DNA from: Natrinema ejinorense
GTDB taxonomy: Archaea > Halobacteriota > Halobacteria > Halobacteriales > Natrialbaceae
Length of the DNA: 64,000 bases
Direction of reading: 5' to 3'
Assembly: GCF_002494345.1 (NCBI RefSeq)
Contig: NZ_NXNI01000001.1
Location: 3,348,001-3,412,000, forward strand
A program made the translations under genes and the position numbers. The first letter of the stretch is position 1, and every line of letters begins with the position of its first letter. Below, one piece after another: positions 55,116 through 61,244 of this stretch. Under the pieces are notes generated by a model. That model made no database searches, was not told the origin of the DNA, and was given only the letters and a program-made list of their open reading frames with translations.

Positions 55116-58100
55116 ATGCGCCCGGAAGACGAACAGTACTTCGAGGGGCTCGAGGCGCAACTCGACGAGGCCTTCGACGTCGCCGAACGGGCCAAAGCAC
55201 GGGGCGGGGACCCCAAACCGGCGGTCGAGATTCCGGTCGCCAAGGACATGGCCGACCGCGTCGAGAACATTCTGGGGATCGACGGCGTCGCCGAGCGGGT
55301 CCGCGAACTCGAAGGCCAGATGAGCAGGGAAGAGGCGGCCCTCGAGCTCGCCGAAGACTTCGCCGAGGGGCGGGTCGGTGACTACGAGACGAAAGCGGGC
55401 AAGGTCGAGGGCGCGGTCCGCACCGCGGTCGCCCTGCTGACCGAGGGCGTGGTCGCCGCCCCCATCGAGGGGATCGACAAGGTCGAAATCCTCGAGAACG
55501 ACGACGGGACGGAGTTCGTCAACGTCTATTATGCCGGCCCGATCCGCTCGGCCGGCGGGACCGCACAGGCGCTGTCCGTCCTCGTGGCCGACTACACGCG
55601 CGCACTCGTCGGGATCGAGCAGTACGACGCCCGCGATGAGGAGGTCGAACGCTACGCCGAGGAGATCGCCCTCTACGACAAGGAGACCGGCCTCCAGTAC
55701 ACGCCGAAAGCCAAGGAGGCGAAATTCATCGCCAAACACCTCCCGATCATGTTGGACGGGGAGGCAACCGGCGACGAGGAGGTTTCGGGCTTTCGGGACT
55801 TAGAGCGGGTCGATACCAACAGCGCACGGGGCGGAATGTGTCTCGTCCTCGGGGAAGGGATCGCGCTGAAGGCTCCGAAGATCCAGCGTTATACCCGAAA
55901 TCTGGACGAGGTCGACTGGCCGTGGCTCCAGGACCTCATCGACGGCAACTACTACGACGACGAGGGGGAGCCCGGCGACGACGAATCCGATGGCGACGGT
56001 GACGAGGCAGAGACGGCCGAGAGCGACGCCGATGCGGAGGCCGACGACGACTCCGCCACTGACGACTCCGAGGGGCCACCTCGCGTCGAGACCTCCGAGA
56101 AGTTCCTCCGGGATCTGATCGCCGGCCGTCCCGTCTTCTCTCACCCGTGTGCACACGGTGGCTTTCGGCTGCGCTACGGACGGGCGCGCAATCACGGCTT
56201 CGCGACCGCCGGCGTCCACCCCGCGGCGATGCATCTGGTCGACGACTTCCTCGCGACGGGGACCCAGATCAAGACCGAACGCCCCGGAAAGGCGGCCGGG
56301 GTCGTCCCCGTCGACTCCCTCGAGGGGCCGACGGTCAAACTGGCCAACGGCGACGTCCGGCGGATCGACGATCCCGAGGACGCCCTCGAGATCAGAAACG
56401 GCGTCGAGGCGATCCTCGATCTCGGCGAGTACCTGGTCAACTACGGCGAGTTCGTCGAGAACAACCACCCGCTCGCGCCCGCCTCCTACACCTACGAGTG
56501 GTGGGTGCAGGATCTCGAGGCCGCCGGCGCGGACGTACAGGCTCTCGAGGACGACCCCCGGATCGACCTCGAGTTCCCCGATCCCGAGGATGCCCTGGAG
56601 TGGGCCGTCGAGTACGATGCGCCGCTCCACCCCGAGTACACCTACCTCTGGCACGATATCTCCGTCGACGCCTTCTGTACGCTCGCCGACGCCGTCGCGG
56701 ACGGCCGGCTCGAGGGTGAGATCGACGGCGACGCGACGCTCGTCCTCGAGTATACCGACCCCGTCCGCGAGGCACTCGAGACGATCGTCTTAGAGCACCG
56801 CCAGCGCGCGGACGAGAACCGCATCGAGATCGGCGATTGGCGGCCGTTCGTCCGCACGCTCGGCTGCGAGGTCCGTCGCACGGCGGCCGACGGTGCCGCG
56901 CTCGAGCCCAACGAACAGACTCCGACCGTCGAACTCGAGCGCACCTGGTCCGACGACGACCTCTCTTCGCGTGCGCGAACGTGGGGTCACGAGGCCGAGG
57001 GCGACAACGCCATCGAGGCGGTCACCGAGGTCGCGCCGTTCCGGGTTCGCGAGCGCGCGCCCACGCGAATCGGCAACCGAATGGGCCGGCCGGAGAAATC
57101 CGAGAGCCGCGATCTGAGCCCGGCGGTCCACACGCTGTTCCCGATCGGCGAAGCCGGCGGCACGCAGCGCAACGTCGCCGACGCCGCCACACACGCCGAG
57201 ACGATGTCGGACACGCCCGGCGTCGTCGAGCTCCAGGTCGGCCGCCAGCGCTGTGACTCGTGTGGCACCGAGACGTTCAAGAACCGCTGTCCGGACTGCG
57301 ACGAACGCACCACGCCGGACTATCGCTGTCCGGACTGCGACCAGCGCCTCGAGCCCGACGAGGCCGGCCGCGTCGAGTGCGACCGCTGCGAGCGCGAGGG
57401 CACTTGCGTCGAAACCCGCGAGATCGACGTCCACGAGGAGTTCCGCGACGCACTCGAGTCGGTCGGCGAACGCGAGAACGCCTTCGAGATCCTGAAAGGC
57501 GTCAAGGGGCTCTCCTCGCAAAACAAGATCCCCGAACCGATCGAGAAGGGAATCTTGCGCGCCAAACACGACGTCTCCTCGTTCAAGGACGGCACCGTCC
57601 GCTACGACATGACCGACCTGCCGGTTACCTCCGTCCGTGCGAGCGAACTCGACGTCGACGTCGGCCAGCTGCAGGCGCTCGGCTACGAGGAAGACATCCA
57701 CGGCGAACCTCTGACTCACGAGGACCAGCTGGTCGAACTCAAAGTCCAGGACATCGTCCTCTCGGACGGCGCGGCCGAACACATGCTGCGGACCGCCGAC
57801 TTCATCGACGACCTGCTCGAGCAGTATTACGGCCTCGAGCCCTACTACGAGTTCGAGGACCGACAGGAGCTGGTCGGCGAACTCGTCTTCGGGATGGCAC
57901 CTCACACGTCCGCAGCGACTGTCGGGAGAGTGATTGGTTTTACGAGCGCCGCGGTTGGATACGCACATCCGTACTTTCATGCCGCGAAACGCCGGAACTG
58001 TGACGGTGACGAGGACTGCGTGATGCTGCTACTTGACGGATTGCTTAACTTTAGTAAATCGTTCCTGCCCGACCAACGCGGCGGGAAGATGGACGCCCCG

Positions 58101-58745
58101 TTGGTCATGTCCTCCCGGATCGATCCCTCCGAGATCGACGACGAGGCCCACAACATGGACGTCGTCTCGCAGTACCCCCGCGAGTTCTACCTCGCGACCC
58201 GCGAGCAGGCCGACCCCGAAGAGGTCGACGTCGAGATCGCCGAGGCAAACCTCGGCACCGACCTCGAATATACCGGCTTCGACCACACCCACGACACCAC
58301 CAACATCGCGATGGGGCCCGACCTCTCGGCGTACAAGACGCTGGGGTCGATGATGGACAAGATGGACGCCCAGCTCGAGCTCTCGCGCAAACTCGCGGCG
58401 GTCGACGAGACCGACGTCGCCGAGCGGGTCATCGAGTATCACTTCCTGCCGGACCTCATCGGGAACCTCCGGGCGTTCTCCCGGCAGGAGACCCGCTGTC
58501 TCGACTGCGGTGAGAAGTTCCGCCGGATGCCCCTGACCGGCGACTGTCGGGAATGCGGCGGGCGAGTCAATCTGACCGTCCACAAAGGGTCCGTGAACAA
58601 GTACATGCAGACGGCCATCCAGGTCGCCGAGGAGTACGACTGCCGCGATTACACGAAACAGCGGTTGGAGGTGCTCGAGCGTTCCCTCGAGAGTATCTTC
58701 GAGAACGACAAGAACAAGCAAAGCGGGATCGAGGATTTCATGTAA
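55116..58745 (+). CDS. polC: DNA polymerase II (PolD) large subunit DP2
   Basis: This is the catalytic subunit of the archaeal replicative polymerase D, 1209 residues. It begins MRPEDEQYFEGLEAQLDEAF. An acidic Asp/Glu insert lies near 280-325 and zinc ribbons at about 710-770 (CDSCGTETF, CPDCDERT, CDRCEREG). The catalytic NCDGDED motif starts at Asn961-Cys962, and a further zinc motif CLDCGEKF...CRECGG is near the end. The C terminus QSGIEDFM is a PCNA-binding (PIP-like) box. No intein interrupts the gene. However, about 57905-58073, around the intein site N961/C962, uses unusual AT-richer codons (AGA, ATT, CTT, TTG, AGT), suggesting past intein-related replacement. Confidence 0.97.
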   Translation: MRPEDEQYFEGLEAQLDEAFDVAERAKARGGDPKPAVEIPVAKDMADRVENILGIDGVAERVRELEGQMSREEAALELAEDFAEGRVGDYETKAGKVEGAVRTAVALLTEGVVAAPIEGIDKVEILENDDGTEFVNVYYAGPIRSAGGTAQALSVLVADYTRALVGIEQYDARDEEVERYAEEIALYDKETGLQYTPKAKEAKFIAKHLPIMLDGEATGDEEVSGFRDLERVDTNSARGGMCLVLGEGIALKAPKIQRYTRNLDEVDWPWLQDLIDGNYYDDEGEPGDDESDGDGDEAETAESDADAEADDDSATDDSEGPPRVETSEKFLRDLIAGRPVFSHPCAHGGFRLRYGRARNHGFATAGVHPAAMHLVDDFLATGTQIKTERPGKAAGVVPVDSLEGPTVKLANGDVRRIDDPEDALEIRNGVEAILDLGEYLVNYGEFVENNHPLAPASYTYEWWVQDLEAAGADVQALEDDPRIDLEFPDPEDALEWAVEYDAPLHPEYTYLWHDISVDAFCTLADAVADGRLEGEIDGDATLVLEYTDPVREALETIVLEHRQRADENRIEIGDWRPFVRTLGCEVRRTAADGAALEPNEQTPTVELERTWSDDDLSSRARTWGHEAEGDNAIEAVTEVAPFRVRERAPTRIGNRMGRPEKSESRDLSPAVHTLFPIGEAGGTQRNVADAATHAETMSDTPGVVELQVGRQRCDSCGTETFKNRCPDCDERTTPDYRCPDCDQRLEPDEAGRVECDRCEREGTCVETREIDVHEEFRDALESVGERENAFEILKGVKGLSSQNKIPEPIEKGILRAKHDVSSFKDGTVRYDMTDLPVTSVRASELDVDVGQLQALGYEEDIHGEPLTHEDQLVELKVQDIVLSDGAAEHMLRTADFIDDLLEQYYGLEPYYEFEDRQELVGELVFGMAPHTSAATVGRVIGFTSAAVGYAHPYFHAAKRRNCDGDEDCVMLLLDGLLNFSKSFLPDQRGGKMDAPLVMSSRIDPSEIDDEAHNMDVVSQYPREFYLATREQADPEEVDVEIAEANLGTDLEYTGFDHTHDTTNIAMGPDLSAYKTLGSMMDKMDAQLELSRKLAAVDETDVAERVIEYHFLPDLIGNLRAFSRQETRCLDCGEKFRRMPLTGDCRECGGRVNLTVHKGSVNKYMQTAIQVAEEYDCRDYTKQRLEVLERSLESIFENDKNKQSGIEDFM

Positions 58746-59145
58746 CGAAATTTTGCTCTGCGGGCGCGGCGAACCCGTGCCCTCGGCAAAATCTTCAAAA
58801 GAGCGCGTAGCGCTCTTTTGGACCTCGCGGGATCTTCGATCCCGCTCAGTTTCGATCAAAAGCACCGGAAGACGCTTCGCGTCTTCCGAGCTCTCGTTCA
58901 CGAGAACACTCCTCCTTCCGTTCCGTGGCGCTTCGCGTCACTCCACATCAGTCGTCGGCCCGCTCGCTCAGCCGGTCGCACGGCCTTCGGCCGTTCGACT
59001 TCTCGCGGCGCGTAGCGCCGCGCACGGCTTCGCTCGCGGTCGATAACTGTAAGGGCCTGCCCTCCCCCGGGTCGCGCGATTCGCCGCAGTTGCGGCGAAC
59101 ACGCGCTCCCGGCCGAATTGAAACCGAATAACGAGCGACGTGTCC
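58746..59145. repeat. Array of short-loop hairpins downstream of polC
   Basis: 400 non-coding bases contain many perfect inverted repeats with 2-3 base loops. Examples: 58797-58819 (arms AAAAGAGCGC, loop GTA), 58827-58845 (GCGGGATC, loop TTC), 58866-58888 (CGGAAGACGC, loop TTC), 58925-58941 (GTGGCGC, loop TTC, one G-T pair), 58980-58994 (ACGGCC, loop TTC), 59004-59022 (CGCGGCGC, loop GTA), 59080-59099 (TTCGCCGCA, loop GT). A wider pair ATTTTGC/GCAAAAT (58750-58756, 58786-58792) lies just after the stop. One or more may act as polC terminators, but the number and uniform loops suggest another role. Confidence 0.75.
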
Positions 59146-60057
59146 TTAATCGCTGGTGGCTCGAGTGACGCCAGGCATCCCTGCCTTGGTATACTCCGGC
59201 TCCGGGGAATACTGCGGGTCCGGCAGCCACTCTCGGAGACTCTCGTTGAATCGGTCGGGGCGCTCTCGGGGCGTCCAGTGGCCACAGTCCTCGATCAGGT
59301 CCAGCTCGGCGTCTGGAATGCGTTTTGCTGCTCGTTTCGACCATTCGACGGGGACGAGCGGGTCCTCCGTGCCGTGGACGAGCAGGGTCGGAACGGACAG
59401 CGACTCGAGGTCGTCGACGAAGTTCGTCGCGACGCGGCCGCTAAACGACAGTTCGTTGTTCTGGAACGCCTCGAACGCCCGGATCGAGCCCGGTTCCATC
59501 AGTTTTCGCCGGGCGTCGTCGACGAAGCGGTCGGGCAACGAATCGGCGTCCGCGACGAGGTTGTCGAGGACCATTCGAACGCTCCGCGTCGAGGAACCGG
59601 CGGCGATTTTCCCGAACTGGGTCATCCCGGGGACCTGCGACAGGACCTTCCACTGGAGGGCGCTGGGCAGTCGTTCCCCGAGCCCGTAGCTGTCGACGAG
59701 GGCCAGTCGGTCGACCCGGTCTGGGTTTGCGAGCGTGTACCCGAGTGCGACGCCGCCGCCCATCGAAATGCCGGCCAGCGAGACCCGCTCGAACGGGAGC
59801 GTCTCGAGGAACCCATCGAGGACGTCGACGTACGACTCGAGGGTGTGTGCAACGTCTCCCGTGCTGTTCCCGTATTCGGGCCAGTCGATCGCGTACACGC
59901 GGTAGTCGTCCGCGAGGGCGGTGATCGTGTGTCGCCACGAGACGGTCGCGTCGTCGATCCCCGCGCCGTGGCAGAGGACGACCGGCGGGCCGTCCGTCCC
60001 TGCCCGCCGGTAGGCGATCCGGCAGTCGTCGATAGTGGCGACACCGGTCCCGCTCAT
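59146..60057 (-). CDS. Alpha/beta hydrolase
   Basis: The protein has 303 residues. The oxyanion-hole strand is VVLCHGAGID and the nucleophile elbow GISMGGG (Ser). The acid is Asp in VHGTEDPLVP and the catalytic His is in IEDCGHWTPRERPDRF, all in canonical order. Lid residues between strands 6 and 7 fit C-C hydrolase or haloalkane dehalogenase/epoxide hydrolase-like members. Substrate is unknown. The start at 60057 (MSGTGVATIDDCRIAYR) is chosen because homology begins there; the open frame extends to 60267 with Arg-rich, unlikely sequence. Confidence 0.9.
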   Translation of the reverse strand: MSGTGVATIDDCRIAYRRAGTDGPPVVLCHGAGIDDATVSWRHTITALADDYRVYAIDWPEYGNSTGDVAHTLESYVDVLDGFLETLPFERVSLAGISMGGGVALGYTLANPDRVDRLALVDSYGLGERLPSALQWKVLSQVPGMTQFGKIAAGSSTRSVRMVLDNLVADADSLPDRFVDDARRKLMEPGSIRAFEAFQNNELSFSGRVATNFVDDLESLSVPTLLVHGTEDPLVPVEWSKRAAKRIPDAELDLIEDCGHWTPRERPDRFNESLREWLPDPQYSPEPEYTKAGMPGVTRATSD

Positions 60058-60505
60058 GATCGGACCACGGTCTCGGTGGAGCGGTCCACGCCCATCGGTA
60101 CCGGCCGGTCGACTCCGCTGGGTTTCGTTCCCGCCCCGGCGATCGGCCCCGTCGCTGGCTCGTCCGGCTCGAGATCGTGTGCCGTGTTGACACTGGGAGC
60201 CGATCCATGGGTGTGACAGACTATCATGGTACGTGTCTCTATTCGGCAGGCGTATATTGTTTTCCATTACCGTGTACTCTCTTAACAGACGAAACGCTGC
60301 TCGCTATCAGTCGATCGACTGGCAAGTCCACCGCGAGTCGTGGCTCCGGACCGACGCGGCCGGAGGAACGAAACGACGAGATACACCGGGGCAATACGGT
60401 ATTTCCACGGTTCGAGGAGGTGCGATCCCTGTCTACGAGTCCCTCGCTTGGCCGCTTGCACAATGCGTGCTGTGTCTTTATCGCCGTCGCCGGTGTGGTT
60501 CGGCT
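60058..60505. other. Divergent intergenic region without a visible gene
   Basis: About 450 bases between the hydrolase and the first zinc-ribbon gene. AT-rich at about 60230-60290. A TTTATC element at 60476-60481, 25-30 bases before the ATG at 60506, is the likely promoter of the plus-strand gene. No further feature is supported. Confidence 0.45.
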
Positions 60506-60844
60506 ATGGTCAAAACTGGTGAGACACCGGCGAAAGAGGGCGACGAGGAGGCCATCGAGGAGGTGGAAAAGCTCAATTTCGGGCAGACGGTCTACGACGA
60601 GGACGGCAACGAACTCGGCCGTGTCCGTGGCTTCGAACAGAGCGGGTTCTTCGTCACTACCCGTGAGGGTGCCGAGGCGATGAGCGTCGAACACGCCCGC
60701 TCGGGTCACGAGTTCGGCGAAGCCCACCTCATGTGGCGCTGCATGGAGTGTGGTGAGATGGATGCGATCGATAAGGGACTTCCCGACGAGTGCCCGAACT
60801 GCGGCACCGAACGGGAGGATCTGATGTACTGGACCGAAGACTGA
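60506..60844 (+). CDS. DUF7130-type zinc-ribbon protein (copy 1)
   Basis: The protein has 112 residues. A PRC-barrel-like beta region (FGQTVYDEDGNELGRVRGFE) is followed by a rubredoxin/rubrerythrin-like zinc ribbon: CMECGEMD and CPNCGTERED, ending DLMYWTED. The likely role is metal binding or redox; no reaction is known. It is nearly a tandem duplicate of the next gene: both carry GMSVEHxRSG/AMSVEHARSG, MWRC and YWTED. A leaderless start fits the TTTATC box upstream. Confidence 0.82.
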   Translation: MVKTGETPAKEGDEEAIEEVEKLNFGQTVYDEDGNELGRVRGFEQSGFFVTTREGAEAMSVEHARSGHEFGEAHLMWRCMECGEMDAIDKGLPDECPNCGTEREDLMYWTED

Positions 60845-60950
60845 ATCGGCGACGGCGGTGAGCACGTGATCGCCGGCGAGGATCACCTGTTCTATATAGC
60901 ACGTGAGGATTTATCACCCGTCACAGCGTGAGTTCGTGTTGGTAGTTCCC

Positions 60951-61244
60951 ATGGCCAAAGAACAGCGACGATTGGGGTTTGGAACGCCGGTCTACACGAA
61001 GGACGGAACGAAAATCGGCCGAATTCGTGGCGTCGACGAGCACGGGCTCTACATCACGCTCCGGGATGGAATCGAGGGAATGAGTGTCGAGCACGTCCGA
61101 TCGGGCCAGACGTTCGGGGAAGCCGAACTGATGTGGCGCTGCTGGGAGTGTGGCGAGATGGGCCGCCTCGACCGCGACATTCCGAACACCTGCCCCTCCT
61201 GTGGTGCCGACAGGGAGGACCTGTACTACTGGACTGAGGACTGA
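60951..61244 (+). CDS. DUF7130-type zinc-ribbon protein (copy 2)
   Basis: The protein has 97 residues. It parallels the upstream paralogue along its full length but has a shorter N terminus: FGTPVYTKDGTKIGRIRGVD, GMSVEHVRSGQTFGEAELMWRC, zinc ligands CWECGEMG and CPSCGADRED, and end DLYYWTED. Tandem duplication is clear. The two copies may have specialised in different conditions. Function is unknown. Confidence 0.82.
   Translation: MAKEQRRLGFGTPVYTKDGTKIGRIRGVDEHGLYITLRDGIEGMSVEHVRSGQTFGEAELMWRCWECGEMGRLDRDIPNTCPSCGADREDLYYWTED

Follow-up and report, generated by a model that had tools for sequence, protein, structure and literature searches.

Archaeal gene ends are still poorly understood, and the stretch directly behind polC in Natrinema ejinorense, where short hairpins crowd together, raises the question of what such an array is and on which molecule it acts. 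A preliminary description of the locus had listed terminators, a structured RNA or a cruciform, and this short list still stands. We find that the array is one copy of a modular, structure-conserved repeat family, which we tentatively regard as an old, positionally conserved cis element of the 3' ends of haloarchaeal transcription units.

Inverted repeats behind polC

In the window (the whole 64 kb stretch of DNA that was analysed), polC, which encodes the large subunit (DP2) of DNA polymerase D, occupies positions 55116-58745 of the plus strand (an open reading frame with matches to Pfam PolC_DP2_N, central and cat at E <= 1.7e-118) and ends with a TAA stop codon at 58743-58745. The convergent neighbour is an alpha/beta hydrolase gene on the minus strand (59146-60267; an open reading frame with a Pfam Abhydrolase_1 match, 1.9e-26). 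A search for perfect inverted repeats with a minimum arm of 6 bases yielded seven between 58741 and 59160 (arms 6-11, loops 2-3). Within 58746-59145, seven repeats have loops of 2-3 bases and arms of this length, compared to a mean of 0.36 and a maximum of 3 in 300 dinucleotide shuffles; for arms of at least 8 bases, the numbers are five versus a mean of 0.04 and a maximum of 1. The whole window, array included, is close to its own expectation from 20 shuffles (58 versus 50.6 repeats with arms of at least 6, and 8 versus 4.7 with arms of at least 8), and the clustering of hairpins behind polC is therefore local. Folding of the array as a single strand, compared with shuffles, gave z-scores of -8.0 to -9.9 for both strands and with both DNA and RNA parameters. 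The earlier count of at least seven inverted repeats was borne out (seven perfect and one imperfect, with one G.T), and its coordinates fit an element at 58746-59115. The loops it gave, TTC, GTA and GT, are right for most of the hairpins, while one loop is TC.

The polC copy is 370 bp long (58746-59115, plus strand, as are all of its parts; ends set by comparison with parsed copies). It adjoins the polC stop codon without a gap, and the hydrolase stop codon is located 30 bases beyond its 3' end. Directly after the stop codon comes the 5' strand of the P0/P1 stem (CGAA-A-TTTTGC, 58746-58756), defined by pairing in 134 distinct copies. Positions 58751-58756 pair with the P1 3' strand, GCAAAA (58786-58791), and positions 58746-58750 pair, across P1, P2 and P3, with the P0 3' strand, TTTCG (58850-58854). 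The variable hairpin P1a (58762-58782) is imperfect here and perfect in many other copies (GGGCGCGGC-N3-GCCGCGCCC and other stems). Two optional modules, both recognised as inverted repeats and by covariation, follow: P2, CAAAAGAGCGC(GTA)GCGCTCTTTTG, with an arm of 11 (58796-58820), and P3, GCGGGATC(TTC)GATCCCGC, with an arm of 8 (58827-58845). Next is the conserved linker ATCAAAAGCAC (58855-58865), which carries a T4 tract on the minus strand and whose AAAAG is invariant in 29 of 29 aligned copies. The inverted repeats P4, CGGAAGACGC(TTC)GCGTCTTCCG, with an arm of 10 (58866-58888), and P5, TCTCGT(TC)ACGAGA, shortened here to an arm of 6 (58892-58905), are optional.

In the remaining 3' part, a conserved pyrimidine stretch, CACTCCTCCTTCC (58907-58919; by eye in parsed copies), is followed by a variable hairpin with one G.T, GTGGCGC(TTC)GCGTCAC (58925-58941; by eye). 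Alignment of 30 copies defines the conserved core TCAGTCGTCGGCCCGCTCGCTC (58948-58969), the core 3' side TCGCTCGCGG (59030-59039) and a further conserved core, GCCTGCCCTCCCCCGGGTC (59055-59073). Between the first two lie a pair of variable, optional inverted repeats, ACGGCC(TTC)GGCCGT with an arm of 6 (58980-58994) and CGCGGCGC(GTA)GCGCCGCG with an arm of 8 (59004-59022), the latter also found with GAA, TAC and TTC loops in other copies. The terminal hairpin, TTCGCCGCA(GT)TGCGGCGAA, is an inverted repeat with an arm of 9 (59080-59099), and the 3' end, CTCCCGGCCG (59106-59115; alignment and parsed copies), closes with an A in most copies.

A modular family anchored to stop codons

A search of the genome with the 400-base array revealed a second copy (81% identity across positions 37-369), along with many partial ones. 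The different stems had been taken to mean that the hairpins are not copies of one repeat; the individual hairpins are indeed unalike, but taken together they make up one copy of a repeat family, and the idea that no repeat is present fails against the second copy and against relatives in 105 of the 125 genomes of the family. Matches to the array at E <= 1e-8 were obtained in 28 of 29 genomes of the genus. Counts for genus, family and order were made with model R1, which covers the 3' part of the element. There are 10 R1 copies in this genome and 0-25 per genome among the 29 of the genus, 28 of which match, while the 105 matching genomes of the family represent 22 of its 29 genera. Six genomes of one genus of the family are without an R1 match, which also bounds the rate of false matches. 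Across the order, where at most nine candidates were scored per genome, 112 of 392 genomes match; 31 of these are outside the family (best E 1.7e-9), 18 of them with a single match. Of 20 loci retrieved from outside the family, 14 were inspected: nine copies, from one family, have by eye the usual start after a stop codon; the other five, from another family, keep the 3' core and have a different 5' part.

An exact 19-base core occurs, among the matches listed, in Natrinema, Haloterrigena, Natronorubrum, Natrialba, Natronococcus, Halobiforma, Halopiger and Natrarchaeobius; the scan for it returned at least 80 loci, and the 12 bacterial ones among those listed were taken as chance. Four plasmid records (three Natrinema, one Haloterrigena) contain partial matches, one of them a copy behind purF that is unannotated in its record, and no match to the element was obtained in phage records. 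A comparison of 57800-60200 with Rfam release 15 gave no match within the element and a single one outside it (E 0.94, below the gathering score), and nine loci with elements gave no Rfam match at E <= 1. Searches of freely accessible papers brought up nothing that was recognised as such an element, and it is apparently undescribed.

The copies analysed below were picked by likeness to the polC copy or by model score, and the list of upstream genes is accordingly not exhaustive. Element length is 190-515 bp, with a median of 261 (109 copies). A common layout was derived from 76 parsed copies, all five anchors being present in 44. In its 5' part, a stop codon is followed by the P0/P1 stem (CGAAA-TTTTGC with GCAAAA and TTTCG), which encloses P1a and the optional P2 and P3; in its 3' part, the order is the linker ATCAAAAGCAC, optional P4 and P5, CACTCCTCC, the core TCAGTCGTCGGCCCGCTCGCTC with optional hairpins, GCCTGCCCTCCCCCGGGT, the terminal hairpin and CTCCCGGCC. 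In copies without P2 and P3 (for example L059 and L080), the 3' halves of the P0/P1 stem adjoin directly, and the hairpins are thus modules, gained in some copies and lost in others, in a constant frame. A hairpin pair of the kind GCGATTCC..GGAATCGC plus GTCGGCGC..GCGCCGAC, located between GAC repeats, is present or absent as a unit (L117, L123, L127, L128, L093, L090 and L100; by eye), and its unit-wise presence behind different genes in different species suggests exchange between copies.

Of 134 distinct copies, 109 had a confident upstream open reading frame and 25 did not. In 102 of those with such a frame, the distance from stop codon to P0 is -1 to +4 bases; in an earlier copy set, 52 of 65 were within 6 bases of a stop codon. 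The 109 copies fall into 19 upstream gene clusters, of which five are single copies and one (L125) may rest on a wrong reading frame. Nine clusters span more than one genus: polC, an HflX-like GTPase, L10e, Lrp/AsnC, TbsP, DUF5813, a FAD enzyme, TFS and aIF1A. Other upstream genes include those for DUF502, an HD protein and DUF5611, and single copies lie behind, among others, gyrB and a PAN-like ATPase gene. In other families, five of the 14 inspected copies are behind a PAN-like gene (three), TFS or L10e. The gene downstream is convergent in 82 of 143 copies, co-directional in 48 and unclear in 13. The estimated start of co-directional neighbours is at least 60 bases away, so the element is not inside a tight operon.

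Multiple copies, modular build and signs of exchange between sites are also what one would see with a non-autonomous mobile or selfish palindromic repeat (a MITE, an IS200/IS605 derivative or a REP-like sequence) that has spread into harmless gene ends. We consider this improbable, since the element is found behind the same genes in different genera and families and its structure is held in place by compensating changes (see below). The genome holds one Y1 transposase gene (Y1_Tnp, C1:1513059), some 62 kb from the nearest element match among the matches listed (C1:1575607), and polC sites without the element go with decay or with a changed neighbour. The nearest neighbour of a copy was behind another gene in another genome in 34 of 71 cases, behind the same gene in another genome in 28 and behind another gene in the same genome in nine; concerted evolution within genomes, considered as a sole explanation, is unsupported by these counts.

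At the polC locus, the element (R1, E <= 0.004) is present in 23 of the 29 genomes of the genus. It was found in 22 of the 23 genomes with the convergent hydrolase gene versus one of the six without (Fisher p about 3e-4, with relatedness ignored). Two of these six have sub-threshold remnants in place (L005, E 0.24; L027, E 0.49). The pattern may reflect one or a few events that removed neighbour and element together.

Two other features of the locus were noted. Adjacent reading frames at 60233-60844 and 60903-61244 (plus strand) encode two small proteins that resemble each other and whose C-termini look like a zinc ribbon (CxxC...CxxC); by eye, they are tandem duplicates. In five of the six genomes that lack the convergent hydrolase, a homologue is located shortly after polC. 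In five genomes of the genus (within L028-L033), the polC match is broken near query residue 50 and the frame is 1429-1754 amino acids long compared to about 1240, suggestive of an intein or some other insertion.

Conservation of the stems and the question of the strand

The stems of the element are kept by double Watson-Crick changes. In the P0/P1 stem of the 134 distinct copies, 1370 of 1474 pair cells are Watson-Crick, eight are G.U and five A.C. The four pairs of the P1 T4 tract are T-A in 130, 129, 133 and 130 of the 134 copies, while the G-C pair beside it changes (GC 88, AT 35, CG 4, GT 3, other 4), as does the second P0 pair (GC 109, CG 11, AT 8, TA 4, other 2). Between P0 and P1, one position frequently lacks a pair (CC 49 and GA 15 of 134). 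In P2, arm changes between CAAAAGAGC and CGAGAGAGC are matched in the opposite arm, and two pairs are AU 16, GC 13 and GU 0. Double changes also occurred in place at polC, where CGAAA/TTTCG is replaced by GGAAA/TTTCC in four copies and by CTAAA/TTTAG in three and one decayed copy; among the 134 copies, both variants are found only there.

The covariation score was above those of all 500 shuffles and all slid structures in both modules (0.184 versus 0.077 and 0.324 versus 0.120); the shuffles ignore relatedness, and the structures tested were derived from the same alignments, which gives them an advantage over their slid versions. Further pair types in the 5' module showed no excess (13 versus 13.9 in shuffles), and the number of pairs changed on both sides in the 3' module was equalled by 25 of 500 shuffles. 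Co-variation between relatives had been named beforehand as the point on which the stems could fail; compensating changes were found, and the stems are conserved.

Strongly covarying stems, placement directly after stop codons on the sense strand, a recurring gene set and a conserved CTCCTCC-like stretch (by eye) speak for a structured 3'-UTR RNA of the sense strand, which would fold, at this locus, in the tail of the polC mRNA and act in stability, processing or regulation of housekeeping mRNAs. Such an RNA should tolerate G.U pairs on its own strand. A strict mismatch count in 109 copies gave 19 G.U versus 23 A.C; it left aside any hairpin with a CT or TC mismatch, as well as the 25 of the 134 copies in which the 3' end was unreadable or the flank too short. 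The RNase P RNA of the same genus (28 aligned sequences), used as a control, gave 83 G.U versus 18 A.C, and 35:25 when the wrong strand was folded; the difference between 19:23 and 83:18 is significant (Fisher p 2.8e-5). Consensus structures counted alike yielded 14:22 for the element versus 83:18 for RNase P, columns with more than half G.U or with less than 60% occupancy being skipped in the RNase P and module counts. The strict count overlaps those for P0/P1 (8:5) and the terminal hairpin (11:14). By neighbour, it is 12:15 for convergent genes, 6:4 for co-directional ones (too small to tell) and 1:4 for unclear ones. The wobble signature of a sense RNA is thus not seen, and we consider this reading unlikely. 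An earlier, crude count had appeared to favour sense RNA (GT+TG 64, AC+CA 19); many of these mismatches came from P2 over-extended into its flanks, and its CT/TC pairs from tandem mismatches, and it was replaced by the stricter counts.

Two further features of the hairpins run counter to a sense RNA. At the place of the terminal hairpin, 76 of 111 copies have a hairpin with a tandem mismatch that reads TC/TC on the sense strand and GA/AG on the other, and the two pairs inside it vary (GC/GC 69, GT/AC 7, AC/GT 5). Among 106 distinct triloop hairpins, GNA (34) and TNC (30) loops are about equally frequent, 42 have other loops, and 103 are closed by C-G; a rule of GNA loops only was too strict and was dropped, 42 of 106 being neither GNA nor TNC. 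Triloops of the GNA or TNC type make up 64 of 106 in the element; the corresponding figures are 18 of 73 for 400 kb of this genome and 13 of 36 for RNase P. The same stem was found with GAA and with TTC loops, and the triloops of the modules occur in both orientations.

Tandem GA/AG mismatches and GNA loops on the minus strand could point to an antisense non-coding RNA that starts beside the neighbour, ends at the upstream stop codon and contains tandem G.A pairs. The module counts go in this direction, with G.U:A.C of 3:2 (5' module) and 11:20 (3' module) on the sense strand and of 6:2 and 25:14 on the other, although the wrong strand of RNase P also shows such an excess (35:25). Since the total of G.U and A.C is balanced and the 5' end of the element is anchored to the sense gene, an antisense RNA seems very improbable.

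The constraint looks strand-neutral. It appears that neither strand alone is the selected molecule, and that either both transcripts fold or the DNA does; the lean of the 3' module alone to the minus strand (11:20 on the sense strand) counts against strand neutrality.

Side observations were made on the control RNA. RNase P RNA matches in the 29 genomes of the genus (L202-L230) span about 370-560 bases versus 288 model positions, indicating large and variable insertions in this genus, and many contain a CCGCGGC(N3)GCCGCGG hairpin with a very variable triloop.

A two-way boundary as the proposed function

A topology role has been proposed for REPs, and the main rival of the function proposed below is comparable: a DNA-level device, in which the element would lie between genes as a cruciform or hairpin bound by a nucleoid or topology protein (gyrase, condensin-like or a resolvase) and any effect on transcription would be secondary. 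To our knowledge, no protein is known to bind the element, which counts against this reading. Strand-neutral, nearly Watson-Crick-only conservation is what it predicts, and many copies lie between convergent genes. The P4 loop at polC is TTC here and GAA in the nearest relative (G010), which also fits. GNA triloops have been described as forming extraordinarily stable DNA mini-hairpins (PMC4686876), and the C-G-closed GNA and TNC loops of the element agree with this. However, the same statistics would be expected if RNA of both strands folded, and a DNA site would not lead one to expect such exact positioning at one neighbour's stop codon. We consider the DNA-level device rather unlikely.

We tentatively propose that the element is a bidirectional terminator or insulator at the ends of transcription units, a function suggested by its sequence and placement; it probably marks and insulates gene ends. 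P1 contains a T4 tract on each strand, and the linker has another on the minus strand. The P1 T-A pairs, which form the T tract at the gene end, are near-invariant (129-133 of 134 copies) while the next pair covaries. In Haloferax volcanii, T stretches were shown to act as haloarchaeal terminators, and one hairpin to terminate transcription (PMC7237163). Transcripts of the upstream gene would reach the P1 T4 tract directly behind the stop codon, and transcripts from the opposite side would run into the linker T4 tract and that of P1 (other strand) before the upstream gene. The additional GC-rich hairpins, with their C-(GNA or TNC)-G loops, may be tolerated or useful spacers that strengthen the block. 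Only Watson-Crick pairs would be tolerated because both strands must fold, or because a DNA cruciform must form. Given T4 tracts on both strands, a position at gene ends and, at polC, the association with the convergent neighbour, a bidirectional terminator or insulator is the simplest reading.

Several points weigh against it. T4 is a short tract, and the median Haloferax 3' UTR to the first site is 97 nt (PMC7237163), longer than a stop at the P1 T4 tract would give. A two-strand requirement is less obvious for the 48 of 130 classified copies with a co-directional neighbour, and termination alone does not explain the fixed distance from the stop codon. With 0-25 copies per genome in the genus, the element is not a general terminator. 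Taken as a whole, the combined picture of an ancient element anchored to the stop codon, conserved on both strands by Watson-Crick pairs only, sized by gain, loss, exchange and flipping of hairpins and acting as a two-way boundary through RNA of both strands or a cruciform is one that we put forward with slightly more reserve still.

The occurrence of the element behind the same genes (those for DNA polymerase D, gyrase, proteasomal ATPase, TFS and L10e) supplies a clearly delimited list of sites that can be put to the test. As a signature, strand-neutral covariation is uncommon, and it would tell constraint acting on both strands or on the DNA apart from that on an ordinary RNA; the comparison of G.U with A.C, with RNase P as an internal control, is reusable. 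Seemingly unrelated palindromes in a hairpin array can form one modular family.

REP and BIME sequences are palindromic, extragenic, multi-copy and mosaic. The element resembles them in all four respects (being extragenic at -1 to +4 of the stop codon in 102 of 109 copies). REPs are units of 20-40 bp (PMC3733652), whereas the element, at 190-515 bp and with several different stems, is not such a short palindromic unit; it also has a long-range stem, begins at a set place relative to the stop codon and follows the same genes in several genera and families. REPs flank an associated RAYT transposase (Y1_Tnp), a type of which this genome has the one gene described above. With the intrinsic terminators of Haloferax volcanii (PMC7237163), the element shares T tracts, hairpins and a position at gene ends; unlike them, it is large, conserved, covarying and limited to a restricted set of genes. 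GNA-loop DNA mini-hairpins of the d(GCGNAGC) type (PMC4686876) are matched by the 64 of 106 triloops that read GNA on either strand and by C-G closure in 103 of 106; theirs is a property of oligonucleotides, while the element is genomic and contains many such hairpins with different stems. Finally, the element has covarying stems, as does archaeal RNase P RNA, but lacks the one-strand wobble signature (83:18) of the latter.
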